Below are positions 18,621 to 64,000 of a stretch of 64,000 nt of DNA, piece by piece (position 1 is the stretch's first letter; every line of letters begins with the position of its first letter). Made by a program: the position numbers and the translations under genes. The notes under the pieces are model-generated. The model was not told the DNA's origin. It saw nothing but the letters and a program-made list of their open reading frames with translations, and did no database searches. Origin of the DNA: Pyropia yezoensis (taxonomy: Eukaryota > Rhodophyta > Bangiophyceae > Bangiales > Bangiaceae); contig CM020620.1 of the NCBI GenBank assembly GCA_009829735.1, positions 22,914,020 to 22,978,019 of the forward strand, read 5' to 3'.

Positions 18621-18628
18621 TAGGGGGC
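18621..18628. repeat. Candidate target-site duplication, left
   Basis: TAGGGGGC is repeated directly at 42723-42730, immediately outside the opposite end of the inverted repeats. An 8-bp duplication is what I recall for Zisupton elements. The string is short and G-rich, so chance identity is possible, but both copies sit exactly where the arm similarity stops. Confidence 0.65.
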
Positions 18629-21024
18629 AACACGGGGATACACTCCACTCCGCCTCGAGAGAATAGTGCTCCGCATCGAGACTTTTCCACTCCGGGTACG
18701 CCCAGAGAGGGCTCTGGGGCATGCAGCCTGCGGCTGTGAGCCGGCACTCCGCATCGAGACTGGCCCGTGGACCTATAGGAAGCGTGCAATCGGCATGGGT
18801 CGGCCTCGCTCTCGCCCAATTTGAGGCTGGCAATCACTCCGCTGCCGTGGCCTGAACCGCATATTCACGCCACCGTCGCGCGCAGGATGATATCCCAGGC
18901 GCCCCAGATTGGGGCGGGGGTGTGCCACGTTCCATGCTTTCCACATTTTTTATTCAGGTGCAATACCAAATATTTGACGTGAAAACTGTGGACCGCCCCG
19001 CATCGCGCCCCGCCGGCCGCGCGTCCCCGCGCCGCTCGCCAACTGGGCGCGCCCGCTCGCCCGCTCGCCCACGCCCTACTCGCGCAGTGCCCACGCAGGG
19101 TCAATGCTCGTTAAGCTGCGGACACCGTCGGCGCCTCGTGCCGCCCACGCCGCGCTCCGCCGCACAGCCGCCCACGCCGCCACCGATCGCCCCTGCCCTC
19201 CGATCGCGCCTCTGGGCCCGGCCGCAGGTGCCGCGCGCCTCTGCGCCGCTCGCGCTTCCAGCACAGCTCTTGATCGGCACTACCCGCACCCATCCAGCCG
19301 CCTTCGGCGCTGGTGCGGCGATTCGCGCCATTCTCTGCGCTCCGCGCGCAGCGCGCCGATCACCACCCTCGCCGCGTCTCGACAAGCCCTCTCGCCCTTC
19401 CAACCTTCCAATGGTGGTGCTCGTACCTCTCCACAGTGTGGGTCCAGTTGTGGAGCCTGTTTAGCGCCGGCGGGGCTCCATTTGGCGCTTTTCGCCTGGG
19501 TAGCTCACTTTGTGACCCCGCCGCCCGGGCGGCCCCATGGACTCTCCTGCCTCTCCTTACATCCCGGACCCCCTCTGTGGTCTGTCCACACGTCTCACGA
19601 AGACGGCATCTGCCTGGGCGCCTGGAGATGGCGGTGCGCCAAACGAACGGACGCGACCTTCCATCGCCCTGTCAGAATTTCAAGAAACAACGGTGGACTT
19701 GTGTCGGCACTTGTCTGCCGATTCTATCACTCCAGGGAGCTCAACGACTCCTGAACCCACCGACCAGATCAACACTGGTGTGCCAACATATTTCGTAAGT
19801 GATGCCGTACAAGTAACTACATTGTGCCACGCACTGCTGACAGCAAGATGAAATACTAATGATGTAGTGAGCGTATTATACAATGGCCAAACTAGTTTCA
19901 TGGATCGCGCCACAATATTGTTTTTGCCCTCTTTGCTGCCGAGATCAGTGGCCTCAGGGCACCTCCCACCGCTCCCCCATTGCAGTGGGGGGCTCGGTTC
20001 CTGCAGTGGTCGCGCTCTTTTTCGTCCCCACGAGCTCTGTACCGCTCGTCAGCGGATAGGGATCGGGGGCGCTTCCTATCCGACCGATCCACAGCGCCGC
20101 TGGCGCCACCCAACCTTATCGCGCGGCTGCGTTGGTGCACTTGTTCCCATCCCGCGCCATCGTTGCCGCAGGCATCCTGTTGCGCGCGCGCGTGGGCGCT
20201 GCGATACTCCTCTCCCGTTCCATGCGCGTTTGAGCACCCGGAGTGGCGGCTACCATCGCACTCGACGCCCGCGAGCCGCCTCGCTGTGCCACCTACTGCC
20301 CCCCTTCCCCGCTCGCTGTGGCCAGCCTGTGATCTGCAGCTACCTTCGTCTTGCACGCCGTGTCGGCAGCTTCGCCGCGGTGGGGCTCTCTTGGGTGGCG
20401 GCCTGTCTCGTCCGTGCCGGCACCACACCCCCACCTCTCACTGCACGGGCACCGCGTGAGGCGTTGCCGTTTTGCCTCTCGCCCCGGCGCCGGCTGCAGC
20501 AGCTAGGCTACTCCCGCTCGCACGCCGACCGCGAGTCCTGTCCTGAGCTACCACTGTACGGCGTCCACCTCTGCCGCACCTCCCTGGAGGCGTGGGCTTT
20601 CTTGGCGTCACTCCTGGCATCGGCTTGTCAGTGCGGCAACCTCCGGCGCGGCACGACGGCGGACGGCCGTGCCAGGTTGGTGTCGCCGTTGTCGCCCCCT
20701 CCCTGTCGACCATTTCAGGTTTTGAATAATAGCAGCGGTGACTGCCGGCGCTTGGCGCGGATCTCCTTCTCGTGCCAACTCCGGTTCCATCGATGTCGCC
20801 AGGGCACACCACTTGACGGCCCCCACCGTCCTCTATGCAAGTATTTGACGGCCCCCACCTTCCTCGACGTAAGCTTTGAAGGCCCCCACCTTCCTCTGTA
20901 CAAGTTTTGACGGCCCCCATCTACCTCAAGGCAAGCTTTGACGGCCCCCTACTCCCTGTACGCAGCCGTGAGAGTCGTCCACCTTAGTCCACGCAGCGCT
21001 TGGCGGCCGCACGGTTCCTTCCTG
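18629..21024 (+). repeat. Left terminal inverted repeat, 2.4 kb
   Basis: Reverse complement of 40326-42722. Similarity begins at 18629 (AACACGGGGATAC against GAGCACAAGGATGC on the other arm, differing by transitions) and stops sharply near 21024. It carries ORFs on both strands that I regard as non-coding, a GC-rich core, and five 31-32-bp repeats near the inner edge. Its inner end lies about 245 bp upstream of the OTU gene, so it may supply that gene's promoter. Confidence 0.92.
20814..20965 (+). repeat. Five iterons in the left arm (period 31-32 bp)
   Basis: Unit of the form TGACGGCCCCCACCTTCCTC plus a variable AAGCTT-like end, starting at 20814, 20846, 20877, 20908 and 20939. The mirror copy in the right arm is at about 40385-40536. 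Regular iterons near a transposon end are often transposase-binding sites. Here they also lie just upstream of the inward-reading gene, so a promoter role is equally possible. Confidence 0.85.
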
Positions 21025-21269
21025 TTTCCATTTAGCCTTTGCTTGTCTGCTCCCGAGCTGGCGCTCGTCCACTCCGTGCCGTTCTGTGTAAAGCGGCCAC
21101 CGCTCGAGGCTGCTTTCTCTGGCTCCTATTTCACAACGCATCTACTCGCAGCTATCGCCTCAGCGCTGGGCTTGAAGACCTTTATACCTGCGTAGGTAGC
21201 GACATCGGACGGGCTTTGCGGCATCAATAGGCCCATCGACAGCACATTCGCCTTTTAGTCTTCTTCGGT

Positions 21270-23363: not shown

Positions 23364-23691
23364 CTATGTTTATGGCGTTGAAGCACACCAAAAAACCATC
23401 AGGCACTGGAAACCGTCATAGTTAAGAATGGGACAGCCCGTCCTCCCTCAAGCTGAAAGCGTAACCCCCGTCAGCGTCACTCTTCTAACCGACCCCTCAA
23501 CCAACGTACTCCGGCCCGTCCCGCCTAAGCCACAGCTGCTGGTCACTTGCACAGAATGCTGTTAAGGACGCCGCACGTCCCAGAGCGTTGTTCCAACGAT
23601 CTTCTCGCGCGCGCCTCAAATGCTGCAGCAGCCGACGTGAGTAAGGGCGATGCAGCGAATCCGCAGGAGCCGCGACCGTGTCATCTCAGCG
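23364..23691. other. Spacer between two converging ORFs
   Basis: About 330 bp between the stop codons of the OTU gene and the minus-strand ORF. No further gene seen. The transcript ends of both genes should lie here; I found no diagnostic poly(A) signal. Confidence 0.5.
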
Positions 23692-24894: not shown

Positions 24895-24971
24895 CGACTG
24901 CGCACTCTGAGAGACGACCTCAGATCTGGACCTCGAATGAAACGGGTGGCTTTACACTATCTAGGGATGAC

Positions 24972-25542
24972 TGTAGCATCCCTGGCCCCGACTTGGCGCC
25001 GACCCGGGACTACAACCAGAGGGCACCAGGTGCCAGAACACGCCCGCCGTGTGGTGATGGTTGGCGGCCGTGGCCCGTGCCCGGCACTGGGATGCGGTGG
25101 ACTACGCTATCCACACGTGAGAGAGGGATTGCTGATGGGTTTTTGCATACTTGTGAGGGACTTGATTTGAGAGAATTCGAGTGTGAGATTAGTGAGTGGG
25201 AATAGAATTAGTAGTGATAGTGGCCCCCGACCTGACGAGGTTAGACTCGGGTCGGGGCCGCTCGGGGTTATGGGGGGGCTACCTGGCCAACGTGCCGAGG
25301 CTCCCCCAGATGCACGTTAAGAGGGACAGCGAGGCGCCCTTGGCCCGCGCCCTCAGGAAAAAGACAACTGCGCGTTTGCTTTCCTCTTCCCCGTGTGCAC
25401 TACCGTGCGTATCCGTTTGCTCTGCGAGCAGGCACGTGAGGCAACAGGCATACCATTCTCGTAGTTCCCCTTTCTGTGTTACCTGTCCCTTTCCCCCGAG
25501 GGATATTGACACGTGTCTGAGAGGATCGAGTTTTATACCACA
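24972..25542 (+). repeat. 5' LTR of element C
   Basis: Begins TGTAGCATCC and ends TATACCACA. It is 571 bp, the same length as the 3' copy. Confidence 0.95.
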
Positions 25543-25546
25543 TATT

Positions 25547-25563
25547 TGGTGGAGCAGCAGGGG
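25547..25563 (+). other. Primer-binding site of element C
   Basis: TGGTGGAGCAGCAGGGG, identical to the site in element B although the LTRs of the two families are otherwise unalike. Confidence 0.75.
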
Positions 25564-25754
25564 ATGATTGGAGTGTTTGAGAAGAGACATTTGGGAGCAG
25601 CGGTTGGGTTGTTCCTGTTCTGTCTTTTTCGGTGGTTTGGGAATTATTTGCACCCGTTCACGGGAATCCCATTCCTGGCTCTCCAACCCCTCTCTTGTGG
25701 TCTGGCGATCTTTGGACACGCAGGCAACTGGACTGTGGCTGTCAAGAGACCAAC

Positions 25755-27515
25755 ATGGCTACCCTCCCTGGCACGACGGTGCCCGAAGGGGTAGACCCCG
25801 CGTCCCTTGATGCATCCCTGGTCACCGCGGGGGACGGTGCCCAACCCGGCGTTCTCCCTACGGGTGAAGCAGACCTGGGTGTGACATCCGGTAGCGGACT
25901 GGAGTCCACAGGCGGCCAAGCACCACCTGCTCCCGTTCCTCCGGCTGTTCCTCCTGTGGGAGCCACCCCGGGGTCAACGGCGTTTGAGTCCGCTCGCAGC
26001 AGACGTCTCCCTCCTGTCGGTTCTACTCCTCAACCTCCAGGGATAGCCCCTGGTGTGTTTACTCCTGGACCCACACATGGCAGTTGGGTGTATACACCTC
26101 TTCCTGTGGGCACTAGCGATGCCAGAGGCACCGTTGTGACTGGTTCTACGGGTCTCCCTGAGACCTCGACTCCTGGGACCGGCCAAGCTTTTCCTCCCCT
26201 TGCATCCTATGGGGCGGGGAGCCCCAAGACCGGTAACCGGAGCAGCCGAAGGCGTCGGCGTCATCGCCGTCGCTCTAGCACCAGCGAGACCAGTTCCTCC
26301 AGCTCTGAGGAGGGATATGATTGGGATGCATCTCCCGGTCCCACCCGGCGCAGGCTAGTCGAGTTTGACTTCCCTGCCCACCAAGTGGGAGATGCCACCC
26401 TGAACAAGGTCACGTATTGGGGTAACTACCGGCTGGAGAACCAAGACCAAGGTTACACCCGGAAGATGGCCAAGAAGATGGCGTCCCTGAACCGGCGAAT
26501 GCAGCCGAGCTTCGGGGGACATCCTAAGTTTTCCGGGAAGAGACCGGCGCATATCTTTGCCTTCCTGCGCCGGTTTGTCAAGGCATGCAATGACAACGAT
26601 GTGTCCGAGGGCAAGGCTCTCTACCTCCTTGTTAACTTCATGACCGGAGAAGCGGAACAGCGGTTTGCACAGGTTCTACCAGACTCTGCCGGACACATTG
26701 TCGGACGTACCGTCGCGAGTTATCCGGAGGCGATCAACTGGCTCCTGTCCAACTACGCTGACGCGGACTCTCTGCGTAAAGCAGTCGGCAGGCTGAACCG
26801 GGCAACCATGGAAAGACAAGAGACTCCAGAGGCGTTCGCCCGTCGTGTCCGGGAGATGAGCGATGCTTGTGGCAACGTTTACCCTGAGGACAGGCTCAAG
26901 ATGATCTTCTCGGAAGGGCTTCCTGAATATCTTCAAGTGGATGCGGAGAACTACAACCAGGAACATCAAGAACATACCTTCCAGCAGTTGATGGCCTACA
27001 CCCAGGGCAAGTACCGGCAAGCCAGGGCCCTCCAAGCTCCCATGGTATCAACTCCCAAGCCGTTGTCGCGAGTTCGACCCGGACCCGACAAGTATAAGGG
27101 AGGTGATAGCCCTGTACCGGTACTCGCAGTTGGCGAGGCCTCACCCATGGGGTCAGGGGACAAGTGGGGCGGCTTCGTTTCCAAGGAGCAACCATCCCTG
27201 GTCGCCCCCAAGCAAGTCAAGAACCAGCGGTTCCGGTCTTGTTGGCTGTGCCAGAAGGAGGATCACATGTCCTACCAGTGCCCGACCATTCCCAAGGACC
27301 TCCAGGAGATACTCAAGCGTCAAGGACTGGTGTTTGCAAAGGCGGTCAACTGGGCTGACCGGCGGGCACCCTCCAAGATGGACCAGGCACAGGTACACGC
27401 AATCGGAGTGGCAACCTTACAGAGCATCACGGAGGCTCTGGCAAGGGAAGCTCCTACGGACTTTGACCTGGAGATCGAAGCCTCTAAAGACTCCTCGGAC
27501 CCGGGAAACGAGTAG
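25755..27515 (+). CDS. gag: gag of element C
   Basis: An open gag of 586 residues from the ATG at 25755 (MATLPGTTVPEG), chosen because the upstream in-frame part is LTR-proximal leader. A Pro/Thr/Gly-rich N-terminal third is followed by an Arg/Ser-rich patch. The capsid-like helical region (AFLRRFVKACNDNDVSEGKA) is clearly related to element D gag. A CCHC knuckle (CWLCQKEDHMSYQC) lies near the C terminus. The end is DPGNE-stop, preceded by GGGAAAC. It looks whole. Confidence 0.87.
   Translation: MATLPGTTVPEGVDPASLDASLVTAGDGAQPGVLPTGEADLGVTSGSGLESTGGQAPPAPVPPAVPPVGATPGSTAFESARSRRLPPVGSTPQPPGIAPGVFTPGPTHGSWVYTPLPVGTSDARGTVVTGSTGLPETSTPGTGQAFPPLASYGAGSPKTGNRSSRRRRRHRRRSSTSETSSSSSEEGYDWDASPGPTRRRLVEFDFPAHQVGDATLNKVTYWGNYRLENQDQGYTRKMAKKMASLNRRMQPSFGGHPKFSGKRPAHIFAFLRRFVKACNDNDVSEGKALYLLVNFMTGEAEQRFAQVLPDSAGHIVGRTVASYPEAINWLLSNYADADSLRKAVGRLNRATMERQETPEAFARRVREMSDACGNVYPEDRLKMIFSEGLPEYLQVDAENYNQEHQEHTFQQLMAYTQGKYRQARALQAPMVSTPKPLSRVRPGPDKYKGGDSPVPVLAVGEASPMGSGDKWGGFVSKEQPSLVAPKQVKNQRFRSCWLCQKEDHMSYQCPTIPKDLQEILKRQGLVFAKAVNWADRRAPSKMDQAQVHAIGVATLQSITEALAREAPTDFDLEIEASKDSSDPGNE
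27503..27509 (+). other. Candidate -1 frameshift site, gag-pol of element C
   Basis: GGGAAAC in the gag frame (ccG GGA AAC GAG TAG). The -1 frame stays open for the 45 codons up to the first annotated start in pol, where there is no good ATG. That favours frameshifting over separate initiation. Confidence 0.68.
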
Positions 27516-30500
27516 GGCAGGCGCTCTCCCCAAGTGTCTTCCCGAACCTCCAACGGCAGGGTACTTCTACCTGTTCCCCCCTTGCGTTCCGGGAGAAAGG
27601 ACGGCGGTTACCTGCTCAACCGGTAGCCGCCTGGACACCCTGTTTGTTCAAGGGGACATTGCTCGTCCTGCGTAAAGAAAACCTCGAGATTAATGCTCGT
27701 ATGCGTGTGGGGGATAGCCTCCCCCAAGCTGTTACGCCGGTGGTTGACACGGGAGCCGGACCAAGCGTCATCACTGAGAACCTGTTACCTCCGGGCTGGC
27801 GTCGACATGCCTGGAGAGCGCCTACCCGGACCCATGTCGTCGACGCTTCGGGTCAAACCCTACGACCGCTTGGCCGTCTTCCTGTCGCCATCTATGTCAA
27901 CAATGAACCAATGCTTTTTCCCTTTCTAGTAGTCAAGACCCTATCAGTCCCCCTCATCCTAGGGTGGGACTTCCAGAAGCAGCATGTCAAGAGCATCCTA
28001 CCCGGAGAAGGGAAGGTCCAGTTCAACCATGGGTTTGTGTCACCGGTATTGGAGCATCTGGACGCCAAGGTTCGTGTAGCCAAGAGCAAGAGGGAACGCA
28101 TCCCACCCTCTACCTTGACTCTCTTCAAACCGGTGCTCCTACCTCCTCGCTCGGAGACCATGGTTCAAGTAACGACCCGGATTGCAGGTCAATGCCTGAT
28201 CTACGGACGTAAGGAATTTCTGGCGAAACACCGGTTATACTTGGCCCACGGACATCACAAGAAGGTAGAAAGGCACACCCCGTTCTCGGTGCTAATCGTC
28301 AACGTGAGCCGGAAGCCAATAACCCTCGCCAAGGGCACCCGAGTTGGTGCAGCAGAGCCTTACCGGGGATCCGCCCGTGCTATGAGCAAGGAAGACCTCC
28401 TGAACCTGCAACAAGAACTGGCATCCAACTTGACGGCCTTAGACGTCTCTCCGAAACAAGTGCAGGCTGGCAGCGCTACTCCGAAACCCGAACAAGCACC
28501 ACCCGGGATGCCGAAGGTCAAGCAAGAAAATGTCCCTCCCGACTTGAAGGAGGCACTGGAGAAGCTTCTCCAGGAATATCGGCACCTGTGGTCGGGAGAG
28601 CTCGGCAAGATGGACGCCACTCTACACCGGATTCAACTCAAGGCGGAAGCTAAGCCAGTGCACATGCAACCATATCGGGCCGGACCTCATCGCCGGGATG
28701 AGATTGAGAAGCAGGTTAACAAGATGCTCAAGATGGATGTTATCGAGCCGTCTGATGGCGAGTGGGCCTTCCCGGTGGTAGTCGTCCCGAAAACCGGCGG
28801 TCACTTCCGTTTCTGCGTTGACTACCGGCGCCTGAACGAGATGACAGTCAAGGACGTATACCCGATACCCCGGATGGATGATTGCCTCGACTTTCTTGGT
28901 GATGCCACCCTCTTCTCGACGGATTGTAATGCCGGTTACTGGCAGATCCCTCTGGCTGACGAGGACAAGGACAAGACCACCTTCACGTGCCACCTGGGAC
29001 TATTCCGGTGCAAGCGTCTTCCTTTTGGTCTCACCAATGCTCCGGCAACCTTCCAAAGAGCCATCGACATCATCCTGTCCGGGCTAAGGTGGAGAACATG
29101 TTTGGTCTACCTGGACGACATTATCGTTTTCTCCAAGACCCCAGCGGAACACCTGGAGCACCTTCGGGAGGTCCTGGCCCTCCTGTCCAAGGCTGGAGTT
29201 ACCCTCAAGGCCGAGAAGTGCCACCTGTTTGAGACTGAGGTGGAGTATCTGGGGCACGTGCTGAGTCCGGGGGAGCTCCGAGTCAATGAGAAGAACATCA
29301 AGGCCCTCCGGCATGCACGACAACCCAAAACCCAGACGGAACTCAAGAGCTTCCTGGGTATGTGCAACGTCTATCGCCGGTTCGTACGGGACTATGCTCT
29401 GATTGCCCGGCCATTGACCAAGCTTACCAGCAAGAAGCTTCCCGCACAACTCCCGGTGTTCGACGAGAAGCAGACCGCGGCCTTCGAAGAGCTCAAGAAG
29501 CGCCTGACCACCACTCCAGTACTGGCGTTACCCAAGCGGGAGGGCCAGTTTGTTCTGGAGACTGATGCCTGTGGCGTCCAGGTGGGGTGCTCACTACTCC
29601 AGCAGCAACCTGATGGGCACTTCCTCCCGAAAGGCTACTACAGTCGCGTCTTGACTCCAGCCGAGAAGAACTATTCCACGACGGAGCGCGAGTGCTTGGC
29701 AGTCGTCTGGGCTTGCTTCTTGTTACGGCCATATCTTGAAGGACAAGAGTTCCTCATCCGGACGGATCACGCCAGTCTAAGGTGGCTGCTATGCATGGAC
29801 AGCAGTCAAGGAAGGGTCGCCCGGTGGCGCCTACGCCTTTCGGAGTTCAAGTACAAGGTGTGCACCAGAGCAGGGAGGGAGCACCACTGCGCCGACACCA
29901 TGTCCCGGCTGGAGACTCCTGCAGCCGATACCGGTCCTATCCCGGAGAAAAATACCTTGCTTCATCCTCCCAAATGTCGGACGTGGCTGGCACGCTCCCC
30001 TGTATGAGACACCTGAAGCTCATGAACCGGTGACCATTCACCGGATGCTTGAGGCACAACTGACGGATCCTCAATGCTTGGAGCTTCGCCACCAAATGGA
30101 CCTGAACCGGAACAGTCGTTTCTCCGAGTCTACGGACGGACTCCTAGTACGGGTGTCACCCTTCGATGGGGCCACTCAAGTCTACGTACCCCGGGGCCTA
30201 CGAGCTGACATCCTACGCCTGGAGCACTCGTCTCCCCAGGCCGGACATCCTGGTATCAATCGGATGTACGCTTCCATGAGATGACACTATCACTGAGAAA
30301 CCATGGCCAGTTACGTCCATAAGTACCTGGAGGCTTGTGCTTCGTGTGCAAGGAACCGGTTGTCCCAGAGGAAGAAGACTTCTAAGCTACGCCTATTCCC
30401 TGCGGCCGAGCCCTTTGCAAGCTTAAGCATGGACATCCTGGGGCCCCTACCTGAAGCATCCAGTGGCAACATATACCTGCTCATCATATGTGACCGGTTC

Positions 30501-31113
30501 TCCAAGCTCACTCGAGCAATCCCGCTGAGGACCATCACGGCTCTGGATGTCACGTCAGCCTTCTGCGAGTACTGGATAGCTGCCTACGGCCCTCCAGACT
30601 CCGTCTTAACCGACAACGGTCCCCAGTTTGCATCCCTGCTCTTCCAAGGAGTCTGTGACCTGATGGGCATCAAGAACTTGTACACTACGACGTCTAGACG
30701 TGGATGGCTCCCCGTACCGCGTGAGCAGCGACCATGTCACCCGAGCTCCACCGCCAAGCCAACGAGACTTGACCCGGCGCAAGCGGGCCGCAGCACCCTG
30801 GCTATCCCAAAAAGAAGGTCGGGAATATGTCTACGTCAAGTTTGTGGACCATGCCTGGAGAGACGGACGCCTGTACCTGCGAGTACGCTGGTTCGGTTTT
30901 AACCCGGCAGATGATACCTGGGAACCCTCAAACCGGCTACCCATCGCGGATGTCTGTGCCTACACGCGACGGAACGGGATAGAGGGCACTCCCGTGGCCA
31001 GAGCCGGCAAGATTCTGGAGTCGGACTCGGAGGAGGACCAAGAGGATGGGGCCAACCAAGACCCTCGGGACGAGCCGAGTTCATCCGCAACGGATGCGGA
31101 ACAAGAGGATTGA
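27510..31113 (+). pseudogene. pol region of element C
   Basis: Gypsy pol in the usual order: aspartic protease (VVDTGAGPSVI), reverse transcriptase (YLDDIIVFS near 29110), RNase H, integrase with zinc finger and catalytic core, and a C-terminal chromodomain (around 30820-30940, with FVDHAW and WFGFNPADDTWEP) followed by an acidic tail. It is shorter than the pol of B and looks broken in about two or three places, mainly in the integrase part. Confidence 0.85.
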
Positions 31114-31258
31114 GAAGAAGGGAACGGGTATATCAAGGAGAACACGCAATACAAGCATGGAACAATCAAGGAAAACAAGCACCCGCTCGGGCAACCCTTC
31201 TCTCCGCCTCTTCCCTCCTCGCTTCTCCCAAGACCCTCACCCTCCTTGCCTCCAACTA

Positions 31259-33376
31259 CTACTCCCGGCGCGGACGCTGAGCCGCGGGAGTGTCCTCCAG
31301 CGCTGCCTCCGCGGCACGACGGGAACCGGAGGAAGACGGGATGACGTAGTGCGGTGGACGCGGTGCATCCCGGTATGACGCCATCGGAGTAGTACCGGTA
31401 GTTGCCGGGGGCTCCCGCTCATCCAAATATGCCCGTCGGCGCCCCTGAAAGCCAGTGAAGGTTTCTGACCACTGCTGGGCCAAGCCATGCCGCGTCAAGG
31501 TCGCCAGAAGTTCGCCAACCACCGGGCTGTTCGACATCTGGCCGCTGTCCGCGCAAGCAAACACCCGGTCAACCACGTTGTTCAAGACGCTGGCGTAAGT
31601 GCCCAGCACCAGGGAAGACCCGACGCCCTCAACCTGCACCGGAAGACGACCCAGCTGGTCTTCAATCATACCGACGTCGTACTGGTCGCATGTCGGGCCA
31701 CCTTGGTTCAGGTACCAGTCAGGCACCCGGAAGCGGGTAAGGCGCAGAGTCGGCGCCGGAGTCTCGAACCGCCCCGAGGATGACACCACCGGACGGTCCA
31801 CAACGGCCCCCGAAACCGGAGTACCCAACTCCAGCGGAGGCACAGCGCCGCCGGCGTTGGAAGAAGGCGTCCGAGGCGGAGCGGCCGGAGTGGTAGGCGA
31901 CCGCACAGTCACCCCCAGACTCGCCGCAGACAGGCGCGGTGCCGGAGGAGCTCGAAGTACCGGCACAGCCGGAACGGGGCGTGAACGCGCCGGCGACGGT
32001 TCAGGCGAGGCCACCGGGGCGACAGGTGCAACAGGAGGAAGCGGAGCCGCCGCAGACGCCTGACCGACCGCCGCGGCCTATCCCGACTCCTGCACCGGCG
32101 GCCCAACTGGCAGAAGATCAAGGGCGGCCGGGGCAGGAAAGCTACCTAGCTGCGGCCACGCCGGAAGCGGCGTCGCCAGCTGCACCTTGGCCGGAGAAGA
32201 CTGGTAGACCACCTGCGCCCAACCGAAGCCATCCCGACGCGGGCGGTTCTGGTCGGCAATCGCGTTCAAGAAGTTCCGGTCATGCACCGGCACCAGACGC
32301 CGAAAGTCAATCATCGCCTGGAAGAGCCCCTTGTACTCTTCGTCCTGGCTGCAAAGGAAGTCGACGGTCAACTTGTCGACAATCCAGACCATCAGGAGGT
32401 CAGGGAGAAACCAAAGCCGGTTGTACACCAAGACCTCGTGAAGCCAGTGGTTGGCCGCCAAGACTGTCATCTCGGACGTGTACATCATGTACGGGATCGA
32501 GTGGAAGAAGCCCTTGATCGACGCCTGAGTCAAGGCGTCCAAGAAGTACCAGGTGAAGGGGATGCTGGAAGGAGCAAACCCGACCGGGATCTCGACTTCC
32601 TGCTGCTGCGGAATGACCTTGGGGTAGTACGCCGCCCGGTTAGCCTTATCCAGCTTCCAGAACTTCTGATGGTTGCAGCTCACGAGGAAGTCTCGCTGAC
32701 GGCCGCGTCGCTCGCCTTGCTCCCGTGCCGGTGACAACTTGGAGTACTTCCGGGTCAGGAAAGGCGGCTCCAGAGCGACCATGCTCGGACGGGGGTCGCA
32801 GTTCAGGCTCCCCGACCCCTTGAGCGCCTCGTCCCAGACCTTGAGCGCCCGGTGGACGTACCCTTCCTCCTCCGGCCACCGGAGAACGGACACGGACACG
32901 CGACGCTCGGTCAAGGGCAGATCCAGCACCAGCGCGAAGGGGAGATCCTCCAGACGAGCAACCCAAGAGGAACCCGAGAAGCTCTGGGAGCGGTCTTGGG
33001 CCAGGCGCATCTGGTCCGCCGTGTGAAGACGAGCCTTATCCATCTCTGTCAAGACCCCGCGCTGGAGTTCCTTGCGCCAGAGGTCCAAGCAATCCTGCTG
33101 GCACTGGGCCGCGCCGGCGTTGCCGACCACCGTGGAGTAACGCCGGGCCGCCAGAGGGTCCTGCCCAAGAAGCATCTCCGGGAGACCCACCGGGGGGGTC
33201 TCGACCGGGTGCATCACAGAAGCCGGGGGAACCCGATCCGTCCCCGCCGTGGCGACCGGCGCCGACATCGACACCAGAGGAACCGGAGGCAGGAGAGGGG
33301 CGCGACTACCCGAGTTCTCCTCCGCAACACTCGCCGCCGGAACCACGGGCCCAGCTTGGATCTCGGAACTGGACAT
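31259..33376 (-). pseudogene. Antisense gene region of element C, related to that of element B
   Basis: Minus-strand coding region between pol and the 3' LTR. Its likely start is the ATG at 33376 (MSSSEIQAGPVVPAASVAEE), after a hydrophobic stretch that may be leader. Several blocks match the antisense product of element B in the same order: RLWFLP..., a VHD-containing stretch, and a 60-residue C-terminal block around LNNVVDRVF and WSETFTGF. The region appears interrupted about once, although an intron is an alternative. It has no recognised domain. Shared position and sequence across two divergent families indicate an inherited component. Confidence 0.65.
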
Positions 33377-33560
33377 GACGTCCAGACTCCAGGGGAACGC
33401 GAGGGCCAAGGTGAAGGAGAGAAGGGGGGCAGAGAACCGGAGCAGGTGATCGTGACCAGGGTGAAGACGCTCGACCTCGGCACCGGTGTGGACGTGCTCG
33501 AGGCTGTGCACGGTGGCACCTGGTTCGGCCCGAGGACGTGCCGGACTAGGGAGGGAGCTA

Positions 33561-34131
33561 TGTAGCATCCCTGGCCCCGACTTGGCGCCGACCCGGGACT
33601 ACAACCAGAGGGCACCAGGTGCCAGAACACGCCCGCCGTGTGGTGATGGTTGGCGGCCGTGGCCCGTGCCCGGCACTGGGATGCGGTGGACTACGCTATC
33701 CACACGTGAGAGAGGGATTGCTGATGGGTTTTTGCATACTTGTGAGGGACTTGATTTGAGAGAATTCGAGTGTGAGATTAGTGAGTGGGAATAGAATTAG
33801 TAGTGATAGTGGCCCCCGACCTGACGAGGTTAGACTCGGGTCGGGGCCACTCGGGGTTATGGGGGGGCTACCTGGCCAACGTGCCGAGGCTCCCCCAGAT
33901 GCACGTTAAGAGGGACAGCGAGGCGCCCTTGGCCCGCGCCCTCAGGAAAAAGACAACTGCGCGTTTGCTTTCCTCTTCCCCGTGTGCACTACCGTGCGTA
34001 TCCGTTTGCTCTGCGAGCAGGCACGTGAGGCAACAGGCATACCATTCTCGTAGTTCCCCTTTCTGTGTTACCTGTCCCTTTCCCCCGAGGGATATTGACA
34101 CGTGTCTGAGAGGATCGAGTTTTATACCACA
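33561..34131 (+). repeat. 3' LTR of element C
   Basis: Direct repeat of 24972-25542, preceded by a purine-rich tract (AGGGAGGGAGCTA) and followed by the atgac duplication. Confidence 0.95.
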
Positions 34132-34136
34132 ATGAC

Positions 34137-36739
34137 GTCATTAGGTACAGGGGGAGTTCTTTTCTCCGTCATCTTCGCTGCTTGTTGATTAAGGCCTTTG
34201 ACCAAGTACCCAAGCAGTGGTCGGCGAGAAGCTTGCCACTTCTCGGGAAGCCTCGGGGTCTCTCCAATGCAGCCACTGCACGAGCGGGACAGATGCTGCG
34301 TATTCGCGCCCTATTCACTCCCCCTGTGATCACACAGAACAGGCGACGGCGCCGGGCGCTGCGCATAAGCCGAGGCCAGCGGGGGCGCCGCTGTTGTAGG
34401 AAATGCTCTCCACGACGCCCACCCCCCGCACAGAACGTGAGGGGCGGCGGTAAACAGCGCTTTTGTTTGCAGAGGTAGCGACTCTCATAACAGGGGCAGT
34501 GCCATGCCCGCTACTGCCGGGGATCCCACCTCACTCCTGAACGCCCCATCTTGGGCGTGGGCGACGCTGCGCACCAGCTAGACTGCGGCCAGCAGAAGAT
34601 GGCCAGTGCCGAGCCCCACCGTAACAGCGTGCGAAGGCCGGTGGCCAGCTCTACCAGGTCCTCTTCCTTCAATCACAGCATCCTTCTCCCTGCCTAGTGC
34701 CACCCGACGGCGATCGGTGCTGCCCAATGCAGGTGCAGCAGCTTGCCCGCAGAGGGGTGCGCCGCGCCTGAGTGTTCCTGCGGTCCGCCAGCGCATGCCC
34801 TATCCCTGGCTTCCGAGTGCCTCATGGCATCACGTTTCCCCCATCTACGACTGTTCTGGCGTTGCCGTGGACAGCTGCGCCCACCGGGGGGCGGCACACC
34901 TGGAGCCGACTTGGACCCACTCCGCGAATTGCCACCGCCGCGCTCGCAGGTGTGCTGCTGCACAAGGTCCCCCCGGCTTCTGCGAACGGAGCTGGCGTTA
35001 GATGGGGCAACTGTGCGCACATGGAGAGGATCGTGAAGCATGAGCAAATAAGTCCTGTGCCGCACCAGACCCAACCGTCACAGTTGCGGGAGCCTCGAAC
35101 TACTTCGGGTACCCCTTGGACTCGGCACAGTCTTTGGCGTTGGTGGCAGCACCAACGCACGCCGGAGCGTCACACCTGCAGTCACTAGCATCTCGCCCTG
35201 CTGGAAATCTCATGCCAGCTTTCTGGTGTGTCTCTATGGGAATCCCTGGCGTCTACCCAGAGATCCTCCACTGGCCCGGGCAACCTTTCAATCGTGGAAC
35301 GGAGCGTCACAGCTGGAGTCACTAGTGACCTTCCCGATCAGGATCCACCTGTATGCTTGCCAGTTTCCCTCTCTGGCCATCCCTCCCGTCTGCGCTCAGA
35401 GCTGCCACTAGCAAGGCCATCAGCTCTAACAAGGTTCGTGGCGTCATGCTTGGGTAAGTGTCCGCGCCCGCTTGTGGGTGCTCCGTGGCACCACGTTATA
35501 CCATCCTGCTCACCACGCTGGAGTTCGCGGCGGCCACCACGAACAAAGGCGAAAACCTCCATGTCGCAGGGAAGAAGCCGAGGACAGTACCTTTAGCGAT
35601 GGATCTTACACCACTGGTACGCACCGCACCTTCAATCCCCGCGTGGGCATAACGTGTATTTCCTCCTGTACCTGCACTACAGGAAGAAGGCCCTGGGAGT
35701 ACGCAATGACACAGCAACCACTGGTGTGAGACGCCAGACTGTCGCTGACGCCCAACCGTTCAATGCGCCAAGCATTGAGTTGGGAAAGACTGGAGCTCAC
35801 GCCGTCCCTCCGGTCCTGTGGCAGCGCCGTGGCAGGCCATGCATTTCCATGAACGCCCCATCTCCTCAACTAATAAGCAGTCGCGTGCAGCACCACCCCA
35901 CGACCCTGACGCATATGAACGAAAGGAAGAGGAGAGGAAGCACGTCAGCGCGAGTGGCGGTACGACGTAGAGCGCACCTTGGCCATCCCCTGTTACCAAT
36001 GAGCGCCATGCCCGACGCCGCCATCAGCCCCTAGTCTCTCTATGGCTCTATCGACCCCAGTAATTTGTGCGCTGTTCAAGCCGTCTGTCCACGAGTCACA
36101 ATGTGACGTAATGGTGTGTAATTCATGGCAGTTTTTACTCGTGGCTCTTGCCTCGAGTGTGTCAGCCTTGCGCTTGTGCGTGCAGCCATTCTGTTGCCGT
36201 TCATTGGCGGAAGGTGGACCGTAACAACTCCGGGTGGGCGCATCGGGAGATCGGTGGACGCGGGTGAATGTATGCACACGTCCACCGCTTGTTCTGCACT
36301 ATCTCTTGCGCCACTCTGCTGCCCCGTTGGGTGCGTATCGTTCGCGCCACCGGGACAAACTGTATCTACGCCCATCAGAGGGCGGGCTTCTTCGCGCCAG
36401 TGGCGGTTACAGTGTATTCAGGACCGGAGTATTGCTCTCTGCCACTTGTCGTGCTATCGCATCGGGGGCGTCGCCTCCTCATCGGGGTCCTTGCCAGCCG
36501 CGCATGCGGCGCGCCGGCGTTCCCTGCATATGTGTGCCTACGCGATGGGTACTTGGGGCTGGGGCTGCAGTGGTGGGCAACCCTGAATTGACATGCTCCA
36601 CTTTCTTAGTGATACAGGTTAAAAACAACAGCACGTGTGCTGCATTACTGACTCCCAGTTTATTCCGCGCCCAAACCACCCGCACGCATCTCTCTATACC
36701 TTGCATTGGTTGGCACTGGCAGCAAGTGCGATGCGATGT
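34137..36739. other. Transposon interior without recognised gene
   Basis: About 2.6 kb between element C and the transposase stop. Only short overlapping ORFs on both strands, none with a recognisable domain. It contains weak internal repetition (for example two copies of a GGAGCGTCACA...GAGTCACTAG-type stretch near 35170 and 35305). An intron-containing gene cannot be excluded. Confidence 0.45.
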
Positions 36740-39700
36740 TTATTCTCCCTTGCGTTCACTCTCGCCACCCAGGTGTGTCTCTCTATACCACAGTGGCCAA
36801 CCAATGGATCTCAAACGGTGCGCCGGGCCAACCTCGTCGCATGCTTCCCGATACATCGCCATGATGTTGCTGATGCTCTGCTGGTACGCAGAAAATGTGA
36901 GGAAGTTGCGCTGGTTGAGTAGGGTAATAAATTGCTTCAGACGCCTTGACGCTGCGTTTCTCTGCTCAGACGAGGACGTGTTGACGCCAAGAAGAGACTC
37001 GTAAGATGTCGGGCACCTTGCATTGGAGCATGTCTTGTGACTGGAGCGGAAGTGAAACGCGTCCACGCACGTGTTCACTAGCCGAGCCACGCGTGGCACG
37101 CGACAGGCTGCCGCCTTGTGCGTGCCACAAGCGAAGTTATAAATGACACTACTGGGTAGCGAAGGAAGGCGAAAAACTATGAAGTCCAACGGCATTCGTG
37201 GACCCTCGTGCCCATCCATCATGATGACCGCCACACACTTGGGATGGGAGCAACAACAGAAAACGCCAAACGATCCCGGCGTCCACCCATCTGCACACCC
37301 GTAGCCTTTTTCGCAAGTTGAGTCTTCCTCAGTCCGTCGCCCGCCATTCACGAAGTCAAGGCCAGGGCGCAAAGGACGCAACAGAGGGCAAAACACACCA
37401 GATTGATGGTAGTCGGAGGCGGCATCCACGCGCTCGTCACCGTACGCAGCTCTCAGCGAAGAGGGAAGAAGCGGCTGCAGCCATAGGTCTTCAAACTCGG
37501 TCGGCGAGATAGACCGCCCAGTGTGTCCATCAGCGACGGCCTTGCGCGTCAACGGTTGGTCGCCCTCGACGACAGCTGCCCTATCGGCCTGAAGGAACCG
37601 GTTGTAGCGCACTGCGGTGACAACAACAGCCCCGAGCACGGCCTGCAGCGACCGCCGAACATGCGGCAAAGCAACCATCGCGGGCACAAGACACGCAACG
37701 GCACCGCGTAATACGCGGAGCTCCCGAACGCGCGGATCTCGAAGAGTCACCTCAAGGGCGTCCTCCGACCAGCCGCCGTCATCCAAGGTGCGCATCAGCA
37801 GCTGTACAGCTCCCCAGTCCCCTGATGTGCACCATGGAAACACAGTCTCGGCGCACAGCGCCCGCACAAACGAGACAACCTTCGGCGCCGCATTGATCGT
37901 CGTCGGAAATGAGGAGTGCAGAGCAATCTTTGGTCGCCTTGCGCGCGACGCACCACGGTCGCCCCCTGTGTCCGCTAACGCCGGTTCGTCAAAAACAGCA
38001 GCTCGCCGGCGGTCGGGGCATTGCGGCGGCGGGTCCTGCTCAGCAGTCTGGTCGGGTGCGTCTGTAAGCCTCTTCAGCAACGACAGAACTGACGCCGGGA
38101 GCTTGGTGCGGATGTCCCGCGGGCAGTCCATGACCGCCCGAGCTAATATGAGTGCCACGTCCGTGCCCAACAGCACTGTCCGCATGAACTGTACAAGGGC
38201 TGGGTGCATCTTGTTCTCTCTGACAGGGTCAAAGAGCACCTGGCCAGCAGCATCCTCCCACAACCCTGGCGAGACGCCCAAGTCCGCTCCAACGCCTTCC
38301 ACAGCTCGCAAAGCGTCCGGGTGAACGGCCGCTATAGCGTAAGCTGCGCTCTTGACGGCGCCTATTGACTTGAATCGGAGCGCCTCGAACTTCGCCTTGC
38401 TGTCCGCCCGGGCATGCCTCAATCCACAAGAGAGCGCGAGAACGACTTGGTTGTTGTACACCAAGCTGCAGGCAGCTACGGCACCAGCGGCAATGTTGAG
38501 GGGCACCTTAATGCGAACCATGTCTCGTCGATGTTTGGCCCGGATCCCCTGGTAGAGACCATCGAAACAAAGGACTTTGTACGAGCCGTCGGGAAGAGCA
38601 CAAACCTTGCACCTCAGCACATCTCGCGGCATGCCGGTCACGACAAGCTCCAGGTACAGCATGACGCCTTGCCGCAGCACTTTGAGCACTCTTAGGTCGG
38701 TGGCAGTGAAAGGAAAACGGCTTCCGCCCGCTAGCTCCACAAGGTGGCCCCTCAACTGCGCAGACCCCGTCAAGCTGGACCCATTAGCGACGAGACCGTA
38801 AGCCACATTGAACAAGAATACCTCCGTGAAGCCGGTGTTCGGAGAAGAAAATATGACGCCCTGCGAGTCCCCGTCCGCCATGACCTTGAGGTCACAGAAA
38901 CTGCAAAGCCACCACTTCACCCAGCAGTCAGCCGCACCGTCCTCGAACTCAACCCTGGCGGCATCTTGTCCACGGTGACCTCCTCTCAAAAATACGGTCC
39001 CGCAAGACGGGCAAGAGTCCATCGGAGTATACTTGTAGGCCTGATGGAGTAGCGCATGCCGTCGAAGCTCTGCGTCATGCAGGAATGCGGCAACGGATGG
39101 CACAGCACTACGTGGCCGATGCGACTTCCGATACTTGAACTTGATCTTCTCCAGACGCGTCATGCTCTCCATTGGCTCCTCTTCGTTGTCAGCTTCCTCG
39201 TCCGCAGCGCCAACGGCTGCCGCTTCACTAACTGCCAATCGAGCAGCTTCTGCGTGCGTGCACGCTAGGCCCTGCTCGGTGCACGACATGCAAGTCCAAA
39301 AGCTCGCCCTTGACTTACGCACGAGCGCCCATGGCCAGTTGCCGCCTACACTGCGGACGCCGCACAGTGCATCCCCAAACAGGTGACCGTCACCCTCAGA
39401 TCGTGGCTGACCCAGGCGGGAGTGGAAGATCCTCAACAGCTGAGCGGGTTGCACTCCGCAGGCGTTGCTCACGAGTACAAACGCGCGCTGCACATGGTTA
39501 GCGAACATGCATGTCACGCGCAGACACTGCTCCGCACAGCTGCAGGCACAAACAACGTCGTCGTCCTGATCCTGGACTAAACAGAGCTCGATGGCGGCTG
39601 CCTGGTCCAACCCGTCCTTCGTGCGTGGTCCGTTCCGGCCAAACTTGGCAACTAGTCCAACATGGCCAATGGGAGCCATCGAGAAGACCCGGCCGTTCAT

Positions 39701-40297
39701 TTTCTTGTCGCTATAAAACGCCAGCTTCTCCCGCAGCTCATTGACACGTTCAACCGCATCGAAATGAAAGCCCTGCACAAGGCCATCACGCAAAACCACG
39801 GAGAGGACGTCTCTGCAGAATATAACTGCTGACACCTCAGCTAGCGACACCCGAACATCCAGGCCAGAGCCAAGCTCTCGACCCGTTCCAGGCCGCTGGA
39901 ATCCCCTGAGCTTGGCTGGGGTGACCCAATCCTCGTCCGGTGGGAGAGCATCAGGATCGTCAACAAGCTCCTCGTCGGTTGCACACGATGCACCCACCGC
40001 GGCGCTCTCGACGGCCGTCCCATCAGCTGCGACGGTCTCCCCGTCTAGAAGTGCCGCGTCGATGACTGCTTGCGTGTTGTAGAGCAGCGCATCGACGGAG
40101 AACAGACGCGAGCGGAGGCCGCGCAACGCCAGCGTCGACCGCATTGCATCCAAGTCCTGACCCCTCCCAACGGCAACGCCGCCGATGGAAAGGGCAAGCT
40201 CCTGCTGCACAGGCGCGTACAGCACAGCTTCATCGCCATGACGAATCAACCCGTGCGCAACAACAGAGTCCAGCAAAATTGGACGAGGTCGCTTCAT
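36740..40297 (-). CDS. KDZ/Zisupton-like transposase (1,185 aa)
   Basis: One uninterrupted ORF from the ATG at 40297, only about 30 bp inside the right inverted repeat. It resembles the Kyakuja-Dileera-Zisupton/HMGXB3-type DDE transposases. A SWIM-like zinc motif C-x2-C-x6-C-x-H lies at C336, C339, C346 and H348, and a zinc cluster at C429/C432 with C465/C468. VLCFDGLYQG carries the presumed first Asp (579). Then come TPGSFGVFCCCSHPKC, VIYNFACGTH, VDAFHFRSSHKTC and SSSEQRN with the presumed Glu 1111. In relatives I recall the VIYNFAC position is YDFAC/YDNAC, with the second catalytic Asp; here residue 1054 is Asn (codon AAC). The protein presumably cuts and pastes the element in the nucleus by binding the inverted repeats. 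The Asn may mean this copy is catalytically weak or uses another Asp. Family assignment is from motif recall, not a search. Confidence 0.78.
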   Translation of the reverse strand: MKRPRPILLDSVVAHGLIRHGDEAVLYAPVQQELALSIGGVAVGRGQDLDAMRSTLALRGLRSRLFSVDALLYNTQAVIDAALLDGETVAADGTAVESAAVGASCATDEELVDDPDALPPDEDWVTPAKLRGFQRPGTGRELGSGLDVRVSLAEVSAVIFCRDVLSVVLRDGLVQGFHFDAVERVNELREKLAFYSDKKMNGRVFSMAPIGHVGLVAKFGRNGPRTKDGLDQAAAIELCLVQDQDDDVVCACSCAEQCLRVTCMFANHVQRAFVLVSNACGVQPAQLLRIFHSRLGQPRSEGDGHLFGDALCGVRSVGGNWPWALVRKSRASFWTCMSCTEQGLACTHAEAARLAVSEAAAVGAADEEADNEEEPMESMTRLEKIKFKYRKSHRPRSAVPSVAAFLHDAELRRHALLHQAYKYTPMDSCPSCGTVFLRGGHRGQDAARVEFEDGAADCWVKWWLCSFCDLKVMADGDSQGVIFSSPNTGFTEVFLFNVAYGLVANGSSLTGSAQLRGHLVELAGGSRFPFTATDLRVLKVLRQGVMLYLELVVTGMPRDVLRCKVCALPDGSYKVLCFDGLYQGIRAKHRRDMVRIKVPLNIAAGAVAACSLVYNNQVVLALSCGLRHARADSKAKFEALRFKSIGAVKSAAYAIAAVHPDALRAVEGVGADLGVSPGLWEDAAGQVLFDPVRENKMHPALVQFMRTVLLGTDVALILARAVMDCPRDIRTKLPASVLSLLKRLTDAPDQTAEQDPPPQCPDRRRAAVFDEPALADTGGDRGASRARRPKIALHSSFPTTINAAPKVVSFVRALCAETVFPWCTSGDWGAVQLLMRTLDDGGWSEDALEVTLRDPRVRELRVLRGAVACLVPAMVALPHVRRSLQAVLGAVVVTAVRYNRFLQADRAAVVEGDQPLTRKAVADGHTGRSISPTEFEDLWLQPLLPSSLRAAYGDERVDAASDYHQSGVFCPLLRPLRPGLDFVNGGRRTEEDSTCEKGYGCADGWTPGSFGVFCCCSHPKCVAVIMMDGHEGPRMPLDFIVFRLPSLPSSVIYNFACGTHKAAACRVPRVARLVNTCVDAFHFRSSHKTCSNARCPTSYESLLGVNTSSSEQRNAASRRLKQFITLLNQRNFLTFSAYQQSISNIMAMYREACDEVGPAHRLRSIGWPLWYRETHLGGESERKGE

Positions 40298-40325
40298 GCC
40301 AAAGACACAGAGATACAAATAGGAT

Positions 40326-42722
40326 CAGGAAGCAACCGTGCGGCCGCCAAGCGCTGCGTGGACAGAGGTGGACGACTCTCACGGCTGCGTACAGGGAGTA
40401 GGGGGCCGTCAAAGCTTGCCTTGAGGTAGATGGGGGCCGTCAAAACTTGTACAGAGGAAGGTGGGGGCCTTCAAAGCTTACGTCGAGGAAGGTGGGGGCC
40501 GTCAAATACTTGCATAGAGGATGGTGGGGGCCGTCAAGTGGTGTGCCCTGGCGACATCGATGGAACCGGAGTTGGCACGAGAAGGAGATCCGCGCCAAGC
40601 GCCGGCAGTCACCGCTGCTATTATTCAAAACCTGAAATGGTCGACAGGGAGGGGGCGACAACGGCGACACCAACCTGGCACGGCCGTCCGCCGTCGTGCC
40701 GCGCCGGAGGTTGCCGCACTGACAAGCCGATGCCAGGAGTGACGCCAAGAAAGCCCACGCCTCCAGGGAGGTGCGGCAGAGGTGGACGCCGTACAGTGGT
40801 AGCTCAGGACAGGACTCGCGGTCGGCGTGCGAGCGGGAGTAGCCTAGCTGCTGCAGCCGGCGCCGGGGCGGGAGGCACAACGGCAACGCCTCACGCGGTG
40901 CCCGTGCAGTGAGAGGTGGGGGTGTGGTGCCGGCACGGACGAGACAGGCCGCCACGCAAGAGAGCCCCACCGCGGCGAAGCTGCCGACACGGCGTGCAAG
41001 ACGAAGGTAGCTGCAGATCACAGGCTGGCCACAGCGAGCGGGGAAGGGGGGCAGTAGGTGGCACAGCGAGGCGGCTCGCGGGCGTCGAGTGCGATGGTAG
41101 CCGCCACTCCGGGTGCTCAAACGCGCATGGAACGGGAGAGGAGTATCGCAGCGCCCACGCGCGCGCGCAACAGGATGCCTGCGGCAACGATGGCGCGGGA
41201 TGGGAACAAGTGCACCAACGCAGCCGCGCGATAAGGTTGGGTGGCGCCAGCGGCGCTGTGGATCGGTCGGATAGGAAGCGCCCCCGATCCCTATCCGCTG
41301 ACGAGCGGTACAGAGCTCGTGGGGACGAAAAAGAGCGCGACCACTGCAGGAACCGAGCCCCCCACTGCAATGGGGGAGCGGTGGGAGGTGCCCTGAGGCC
41401 ACTGATCTCGGCAGCAAAGAGGGCAAAAACAATATTGTGGCGCGATCCATGAAACTAGTTTGGCCATTGTATAATACGCTCACTACATCATTAGTATTTC
41501 ATCTTGCTGTCAGCAGTGCGTGGCACAATGTAGTTACTTGTACGGCATCACTTACGAAATATATTGGCACACCAGTGTTGATCTGGTCGGTGGGTTCAGG
41601 AGTCGTTGAGCTCCCTGGAGTGATAGAATCGGCAGACAAGTGCCGACACAAGTCCACCGTTGTTTCTTGAAATTCTGACAGGGCGATGGAAGGTCGCGTC
41701 CGTTCGTTTGGCGCACCGCCATCTCCAGGCGCCCAGGCAGATGCCGTCTTCGTGAGACGTGTGGACAGACCACAGAGGGGGTCCGGGATGTAAGGAGAGG
41801 CAGGAGAGTCCATGGGGCCGCCCGGGCGGCGGAGTCACAAAATGAGCTACCCAGGCGAAAAGCGCCAAATGGAGCCCCGCCGGCGCTAAACAGGCTCCAC
41901 AACTGGACCCACACTGTGGAGAGGTACGAGCACCACCATTGGAAGGTTGGAAGGGCGAGAGGGCTTGTCGAGACGCGGCGAGGGTGGTGATCGGCGCGCT
42001 GCGCGCGGAGCGCAGAGAATGGCGCGAATCGCCGCACCAGCGCCGAAGGCGGCTGGATGGGTGCGGGTAGTGCCGATCAAGAGCTGTGCTGGAAGCGCGA
42101 GCGGCGCAGAGGCGCGCGGCACCTGCGGCCGGGCCCAGAGGCGCGATCGGAGGGCAGGGGCGATCGGTGGCGGCGTGGGCGGCTGTGCGGCGGAGCGCGG
42201 CGTGGGCGGCACGAGGCGCCGACGGTGTCCGCAGCTTAACGAGCATTGACCCTGCGTGGGCACTGCGCGAGTAGGGCGTGGGCGAGCGGGCGAGCGGGCG
42301 CGCCCAGCTGGCGAGCGGCGCGGGGACGCGCGGCCGGCGGGGCGCGATGCTGGGCGGTCCACAGTTTTCACGTCAAATATTTGGTATTGCACCTGAATAA
42401 AAAATGTGGAAAGCATGGAACGTGGCACACCCCCGCCCCAATCTGGGGCGCCTGGGATATCATCCTGCGCGCGACGGTGGCGTGAATATGCGGTTCAGGC
42501 CACGGCAGCGGAGTGATTGCCAGCCTCAAATTGGGCGAGAGCGAGGCCGACCCATGCCGATTGCACGCTTCCTATAGGTCCACGGGCCAGTCTCGATGCG
42601 GAGTGCCGGCTCACAGCCGCAGGCTGCATGCCCCAGAGCCCTCTCTGGGCGTACCCGGAGTGGAAAAGTCTCGATGCGGAGCACTATTCTCTCGAGGCGG
42701 AGTGGAGTGCATCCTTGTGCTC
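40326..42722 (-). repeat. Right terminal inverted repeat, 2.4 kb
   Basis: Reverse complement of 18629-21024. I noticed about a dozen to fifteen substitutions, including four transitions clustered at the outer tip, and essentially no length difference. The inner edge lies about 30 bp from the transposase ATG, so the promoter of the transposase must lie in this repeat. Confidence 0.92.
40385..40536 (-). repeat. Five iterons in the right arm (period 31-32 bp)
   Basis: Mirror image of the left-arm iterons. The array ends about 90 bp upstream of the transposase start codon. Confidence 0.85.
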
Positions 42723-42730
42723 TAGGGGGC
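42723..42730. repeat. Candidate target-site duplication, right
   Basis: TAGGGGGC, matching 18621-18628. Confidence 0.65.
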
Positions 42731-63700: not shown

Positions 63701-64000
63701 GCAGCAATGCGAAGGTTCTTCCACTGGCCAGCAATGGCCGTCGACGTAATCGACCACGTAAGGGGATGCCACCCCTGTGCACGTAACCGCATGAGTCTAC
63801 ATAGGCAGGCGTCTGCCATGAAGCTATTCCCACCCGATGGGCCCAACGAGCAAGTCGCTATCGACATACTCGGGCCACTTCCGATAACGGAAGAAGGGAA
63901 CAGGTACATCCTGGTCATGTCTGACCGCTTCACTAAGCTGTCAAGAGCGGCAGCCATCCCGAATGATACGGCATACACGATCATGAACGCAGTGGTTGAC
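60753..64000 (+). pseudogene. pol region of element F
   Basis: Protease (DTGAG near 61105), reverse transcriptase (YLDD near 62505), RNase H, and integrase zinc finger and first part of the core; the window ends inside the integrase. Broken in about two places. Confidence 0.88.

Follow-up and report, generated by a model that had tools for sequence, protein, structure and literature searches.

The 64,000-nucleotide stretch analyzed here (the window) comes from the red alga Pyropia yezoensis (assembly GCA_009829735.1, contig CM020620.1, positions 22,914,020 to 22,978,019 of the forward strand) and holds an element of 24,095 bp that is framed by two long inverted arms. With their tips included, the left arm spans 18628 to 21034 (plus strand, tip CAACACGGGG) and the right arm 40317 to 42722 (minus strand, tip GAGCACAAGG); the two align without gaps and are identical at 2382 of 2398 aligned positions, in line with an earlier note on this DNA that had reported near-identical inverted arms of about 2.4 kb. 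A map of the mismatches from the tips inward counts 25 among 2412 compared positions, with 5 among the outermost 13 positions compared to 11 among the 2376 that follow (Fisher 8e-9), and the remainder in the ragged inner edge of the arms. The target duplication TAGGGGGC lies exactly outside both arms, its left copy at 18621 to 18628 (7 bp, TAGGGGG, if the C is the element's first base) and its right copy at 42723 to 42730 matching it at 8 of 8 positions, and the termini of the element read CAACAC...GTGCTC. Searched for alone, the TAGGGGGC pattern was uninformative, with 2553 and 2538 places against 3893 and 3851 in the reversed control. Three subterminal repeats, CTCCGC(A/C)TCGAGA, begin at 18648, 18669, and 18747 of the left arm (18648 to 18760, plus strand; spacing, 21 and 78), and their mirror images lie at 42591, 42669, and 42690 of the right arm (42591 to 42703, minus strand); these are candidate transposase-binding sites. 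A 31-bp tandem repeat occupies the inner edge of the left arm (20813 to 20949, plus strand) with a mirror copy at 40401 to 40537; overall, little of the arm sequence consists of tandem repeats.

Two genes adjoin the arms and read inward, as the earlier note had it. On the left, a gene for an OTU-like protein of 697 amino acids (P0002; 21270 to 23363, plus strand), named from its motifs and weak profile matches, starts about 236 bp from the arm; on the right, a large open reading frame (ORF) at 36740 to 40318 (minus strand) reads inward from the arm and has its first Met at 40297, about 20 bp away, from which it encodes a putative KDZ-type transposase of 1185 amino acids (P0001; 36740 to 40297). 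A third ORF (P0004; 23692 to 24894, minus strand; 400 amino acids) belongs to no Pfam family, and Pfam searches of P0001, P0002, P0003, P0004, and P0005 returned nothing useful. Inside the element lies a long terminal repeat (LTR) retrotransposon that is not part of it (24972 to 34131, plus strand), with LTRs at 24972 to 25542 and 33561 to 34131 that are identical at 570 of 571 positions, a 5-bp duplication (ATGAC at 24967 to 24971 and 34132 to 34136), and reverse transcriptase and RNase H domains, from which we read it as Ty3-like. With this insertion and its second target copy removed, 14,930 bp remain, matching the unit of about 14.9 kb that had been proposed to predate the landing of this "element C." The insertion is too young, with 1 difference in 571 LTR positions, to tell the age of the window arms. 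The stretch from the retroelement to the transposase (34137 to 36740) was searched for a shared gene and gave only matches at the end of the transposase itself, plus one weak match of 51 residues (E value of 0.003).

Used as a query against the genome, the window arm returned at least 15 matches, namely, the two window arms and 13 partial ones that each cover at most 659 bp. Two pairs of these matches mark further elements of about 45 and 30 kb, each complete at its two ends and with different flanks. The first, at C2:5,528,254-5,573,747, has arms that are 97.2% identical over 2142 bp and contains the OTU gene, the third ORF, and the transposase in two pieces each, the last with two stop codons; the second, at C1:11,862,199-11,891,881, has arms that are 97.9% identical over 1461 bp and contains a transposase that is broken and a third ORF that is interrupted by two stops. 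Identity to the window proteins is 70% and 64% for the transposase (45% for a 197-residue N-terminal piece in the C2 element), 58 to 63% for the C2 OTU protein, and 33 to 34% for the third ORF. Pairwise dN/dS ratios were 0.09 and 0.14 for the transposase, 0.09 for OTU against the C2 copy, and 0.31 for the third ORF, with synonymous sites near saturation and two of the six comparisons lacking a finite dS. The distance from arm to gene is about 100 bp (transposase) and 256 bp (OTU) in the C2 element and, from coordinates, about 700 bp on the transposase side in the C1 element. Subterminal repeat spacings of 20 to 21 and 78 to 79 recur in both window arms, the C2 right end, and the C1 left end, and the C2 left and C1 right ends match two of the three repeats exactly. 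An end-motif pattern allowing up to 3 mismatches was found at 11 places (C2:2,200,101 and C2:18,406,421 among them) against 1 in the reversed control, and the other element ends in the genome occur singly. This is a real transposon family, with inverted ends, a target duplication, and relatives at other sites, and it is not a product of chance, because related ends, long arms, a transposase, and the third ORF recur together at two further loci, where the OTU gene is present in one. The earlier proposal of one mobile unit is thus upheld by relatives with other flanks; the search that it had suggested, for both arms at other loci, found such related elements and no near-identical second copy.

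These elements also bear on the length of the duplication. With the tips read as CAACACGGGG and GARCACAAGG, the flanks agree as TAGGGGG in the window (7 of 7, with the next base agreeing too), as CCATACC in the C2 element (7 of 7, with an unlike eighth base), and as CATGGTG/CGTGGTG in the C1 element (6 of 7). Because of these three duplications, the 8-bp repeat that had been described outside the arms, exact as it is, is probably better read as a duplication of 7 bp across the three elements that are complete at both ends.

Comparison of profiles suggests that the transposase is a divergent member of the KDZ superfamily. An hhalign comparison of the transposase family profile with seven PF18758-positive proteins from the same genome (PF18758 is the KDZ transposase domain) gave a probability of 98.3 and an E value of 1.4e-14 over 624 columns, with agreement at the FDGL, YD-AC, VD-FH, and EQ-N blocks; the comparison profile was built from 7 of the genome's 10 PF18758 loci, all seven of which match PF18758 at E values of up to 0.01. 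Among 16 aligned members of the transposase family, 3 match PF18758 at E values of up to 1 (best, 3.7e-4), one relative (P0012) scoring 18.2 bits against a curated cutoff of 26.6 bits, and the KDZ-associated Cys cluster CxC4 was found in 2 members (best E value of 4.3e-4) and CxC5 in 1 (0.93). P0001 itself has no CxC family and no other relevant Pfam family in a Pfam search. Our first search recovered at least seven relatives of P0001 at E values below 1e-3, with 99 to 31% identity, and a region search with P0012 added P0024 to P0031 (in both searches the 8000 best candidates were scored). Scoring of 39 of 134 candidates in the genome gave 52 matches to P0001, several of which may represent one gene, and PF18758 has 10 other places, none of which coincides with any of the 52, and the KDZ link is therefore made by profiles. 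KDZ-type genes are abundant in Pyropia yezoensis.

The window copy of the transposase appears to have decayed. P0001 differs from P0007 at 17 positions, and at positions 657, 981, and 1061 the window protein alone departs from a residue common to all others aligned (15, 14, and 13 sequences, respectively), departures that fit decay. Position 1061 is the Asp of the YDFAC block, a putatively catalytic residue, and is Asn in the window protein. Because its transposase is without an Asp that is kept by all relatives aligned there, the window copy is probably inactive and no longer able to move itself. Less decayed transposase relatives are present in public assemblies.

The OTU-like protein is recognized from conserved blocks. 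GDNDCFYH (G16 to H23 of alignment A5) is invariant in all nine OTU-like sequences with a whole domain, as is the HF-YP block (H243, F244, Y246, and P247); the conserved blocks also include WMG--HGEYAVL, and the C-terminal one reads AHF-YP. In alignment A2, P0023 reads GDKDCFYH at this position and stops short of the C-terminal block. We take the Asp-x-x-Cys block together with the C-terminal His-aromatic block to be the motifs of an OTU cysteine protease. A profile of the domain gave 14 PDB matches at E values of up to 10, all on the Cys block (best E value of 0.26), and all 14 entries are presumably OTU domains, 12 viral and 2 otubain; the viral matches are related to one another, and the result is therefore no more than suggestive. 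The full-length profile gave 4 PDB matches at E values of up to 1, three of which were the same viral OTU domains and the best of which was an unrelated VP3. The OTU protease named in the earlier note is thus suggested by motifs and weak PDB matches; it has no match to a Pfam family.

The earlier description of the protease as cargo is qualified by the distribution of this gene and of the third ORF. At E values of up to 0.01, OTU matches in the genome are confined to the window, the C2 element (two pieces), and one further locus at C1:23.826 Mb, and third-ORF matches to the window, the C1 element, the C2 element (two pieces), and a place beside that same OTU locus. At this locus (C1:23,825,309-23,828,495; L039 1810-4996), the OTU-like gene and the third ORF converge, and the comparisons made across 18 kb showed neither a transposase match nor an inverted one; it is apparently a remnant or a divergent relative. 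Because both have their other matches in this genome either within the two related elements or next to each other in this one apparent remnant, the OTU gene and the third ORF look like standing genes of the lineage, not casual cargo, and the genes of the element tend to travel together. In public assemblies, P0011 (a transposase) and P0017 (an OTU-like protein) are each listed on one 9697-base contig, which is probably the same contig.

The arms are the most interesting point of the element. Within each of the three complete elements the two arms are 97 to 99% identical, whereas alignment of the window arm with those of the C2 and C1 elements is limited to the outer 251 to 336 bp (71 to 78% identity), and that of the C2 arm with the C1 arm to stretches of 144 bp (81%) and 61 bp (77%); the transposase and OTU proteins of the same elements are mostly 58 to 70% identical. 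In the C1 element, the LTRs of a retroelement that adjoins the left arm with its 5' LTR are 89.4% identical compared to 97.9% for the arms (Fisher 8e-13). Direct-repeat pairs nested in the C2 element are 93.5 to 99.8% identical and do not distinguish homogenization from mere age, and a second C1 retroelement has identical LTRs (468 of 468). The same two unlike tip types occur in all three elements, with the tip CAACACGGGG on the OTU side, away from the transposase, in the window and on the transposase side in the C2 and C1 elements, so that the window has its genes in the opposite order with respect to the tips, as crossing over between the arms would cause. The natural reading of these patterns is that the arms would be homogenized, and occasionally inverted, by exchange between them. 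Long arms may be special to this lineage, as is suggested by the single sister KDZ-like locus at C3:16,624,653-16,638,644 (n = 1), which has a 91-bp inverted match at 86% identity and no long arms, and near its ends a 10-bp direct repeat noted by eye.

Taken together, we consider it likely, with a probability of roughly 0.8, that the window element is a cut-and-paste DNA transposon with three genes, belonging to a red-algal lineage within the KDZ superfamily. Several results count against this. P0001 has no PF18758 match at E values of up to 10 in a search whose filters drop most weak matches, so that the KDZ assignment made in the earlier note from the 1185-amino-acid protein is sustained at the level of the superfamily, by the profile-profile match and the weak family matches in its relatives. 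Structure models were unusable (mean predicted local distance difference test scores of 40.6 and 34.8, the latter for the OTU-like protein), and the C1 element has no OTU match in the genome search at E values of up to 0.01. An empty site, which the earlier note had proposed to look for, was not found in this genome; the joined flanks gave 15 matches, and no place spans the join, the matches being to the window's own two halves and, for part of the left flank's first 173 bases, to repeats elsewhere.

Other explanations of the locus are less convincing. The transposase could come from a different DDE superfamily and merely resemble KDZ, in keeping with the absence of PF18758 from P0001 and from 13 of 16 family members and with long arms that are unlike Kyakuja as described; we regard this as improbable in light of the 624-column match with its four shared blocks and of the KDZ-associated Cys cluster in two relatives. 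It is more improbable still that the structure is a composite, in which two inverted copies of a separate 2.4-kb element flank unrelated genes: the arms are indeed as alike as two recent copies would be, but no solo arm was found among the at least 15 matches (the other 13 cover no more than 659 bp), two other loci hold a transposase and the third ORF (one with the OTU gene) between their own, different arms, and the tips of the element lie at its outer ends. The least probable of these explanations is an assembly artifact, in which one arm would be a palindromic false duplication. The assembly was scaffolded with optical maps and Hi-C, according to PMC7423979, and the window contains a 500-bp run of N at 2957 to 3456; however, this is its only such run and lies outside the element, the arms differ at 16 sites and have distinct tips, an exact duplication flanks them, and the same layout recurs with other arms at two more loci.

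How the arms stay alike is a separate matter. They might have been made afresh in a recent event, for example if one end was copied onto the other during repair after excision, instead of being maintained by continuing exchange. This would equally explain identity within elements and divergence between them, and we judge it rather unlikely, if still deserving of some weight, since copying of a whole end would erase the two unlike tips that are common to three elements, and since the arm-adjacent C1 retroelement appears, by LTR divergence, to be older than the arm differences, subject to a caveat about its boundary. Continuing exchange has its own difficulties. The two ends of the C1 retroelement are not flanked by matching duplications, because of which we consider its placement to be partly rearranged, and this is a weak point of the comparison of LTRs with arms. 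Arms are also not private to single elements, since less distant pairs align further: an incomplete locus at C1:3.19 Mb is 91.6% identical to the C2 arm over 570 bp, and a broken locus at C3:11.41 Mb shares 659 bp with a more inward part of the window arm at 75%. The argument from tips and inversion is drawn from only three elements. We put forward only tentatively, at somewhat less than even odds, the more specific view of a KDZ lineage with a self-homogenizing, invertible arm frame, in which recombination within the element keeps two promoter arms alike and flips the coding interior and the short, unlike tips CAACACGGGG and GARCACAAGG are protected, giving the element a left and a right end. 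If this is true, arm sequence would turn over rapidly between lineages while symmetry is never broken.

For the three-gene transposon that we favor, a working scheme can be proposed from the comparisons above. The transposase would bind the subterminal repeats, cut with a 7-bp stagger, and reinsert the element, and the arms, which reach nearly to the starts of the outer genes, would act as two copies of one promoter that drive converging transcription. Gene conversion or crossing over within the element would keep the arms identical, and crossing over would sometimes invert the interior, with the outermost ~13 bp staying unlike each other. Our guess for the OTU-like protein is a deubiquitinase or protease that may protect or process the transposase or counter host silencing.

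KDZ transposons have been described chiefly in fungi and some animals, and to our knowledge little is known of how they move. The window element resembles them in the core transposase motifs, by profile, and in the KDZ-associated Cys cluster of two relatives. According to PMC12730594, KDZ elements make duplications of 7 bp (Kyakuja) or 8 bp (Zisupton and Dileera), to which the 7 or 8 bp here compare, and may carry extra genes, such as TET/JBP in fungi; the Kyakuja families described there have CA..TG termini without terminal inverted repeats (TIRs), unlike the 2.4-kb inverted arms seen here. The portions consulted make no mention of arms of 1.5 to 2.4 kb, an OTU-like gene, or the third ORF for KDZ elements, and the word "protease" occurs 0 times in the main text. 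A full-text search found no paper that treats Zisupton and OTU together, and Repbase or the subscription literature may hold an entry for this family.

Other transposons resemble the element in single features. MuDR likewise has two converging genes, though the MULE transposase differs, MULE duplications are about 9 bp, and the arms here are roughly ten times longer than those of MuDR. Foldback elements such as Tetris have very long inverted ends, whereas the arms of the window element contain few tandem repeats and enclose a transposase and two more genes. Long TIRs in Mutator and MULE elements carry transposase-binding sites and promoters, according to PMC3310237, which invites comparison with the arms described here. 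Helentrons, according to PMC6431247, are eukaryotic DNA transposons that likewise encode an OTU-like cysteine protease, described as an additional domain, and differ in having a rolling-circle Rep and helicase in place of a DDE transposase.

The window also contains sequence outside the element. Just beyond the right arm, at 43068 to 45908 (plus strand), is an ORF of 946 amino acids with a P-loop-like motif noted by eye (GLVAEAGSGKS) and no Pfam family. Retroelement sequence at 1 to 2832 is repeated at 8033 to 10860, a spacing of ~8,030 bp, with the listed stretches 100% alike, and occurs in a third place, 62436 to 63987, at 95 to 97%; the spaced repeat adjoins the run of N and stems from a tandem duplication or else from a local error in the assembly. 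A GC-rich ORF of 909 amino acids (P0006; 11011 to 13740, minus strand) has relatives, at 53 to 95% depending on the piece, that lie between the two parts of the third ORF in the C2 element and at loci L033 and L035, and is probably part of a mobile element. At 47325 to 48029, where GC content is 77%, a 129-bp stretch occurs three times in direct orientation, with copies that are 74 to 79% alike and whose starts are separated by 279 and 297 bp.

The KDZ superfamily gains in range from a red-algal lineage whose elements combine three genes, one for an OTU-like partner, with symmetric arms of kilobase length. In these elements, arm divergence within an element can be set against nested insertions that can be dated, a natural experiment on the concerted evolution of inverted repeats. 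For nori genomics, they form one defined family in place of the seemingly unrelated pieces that repeat finders could report.

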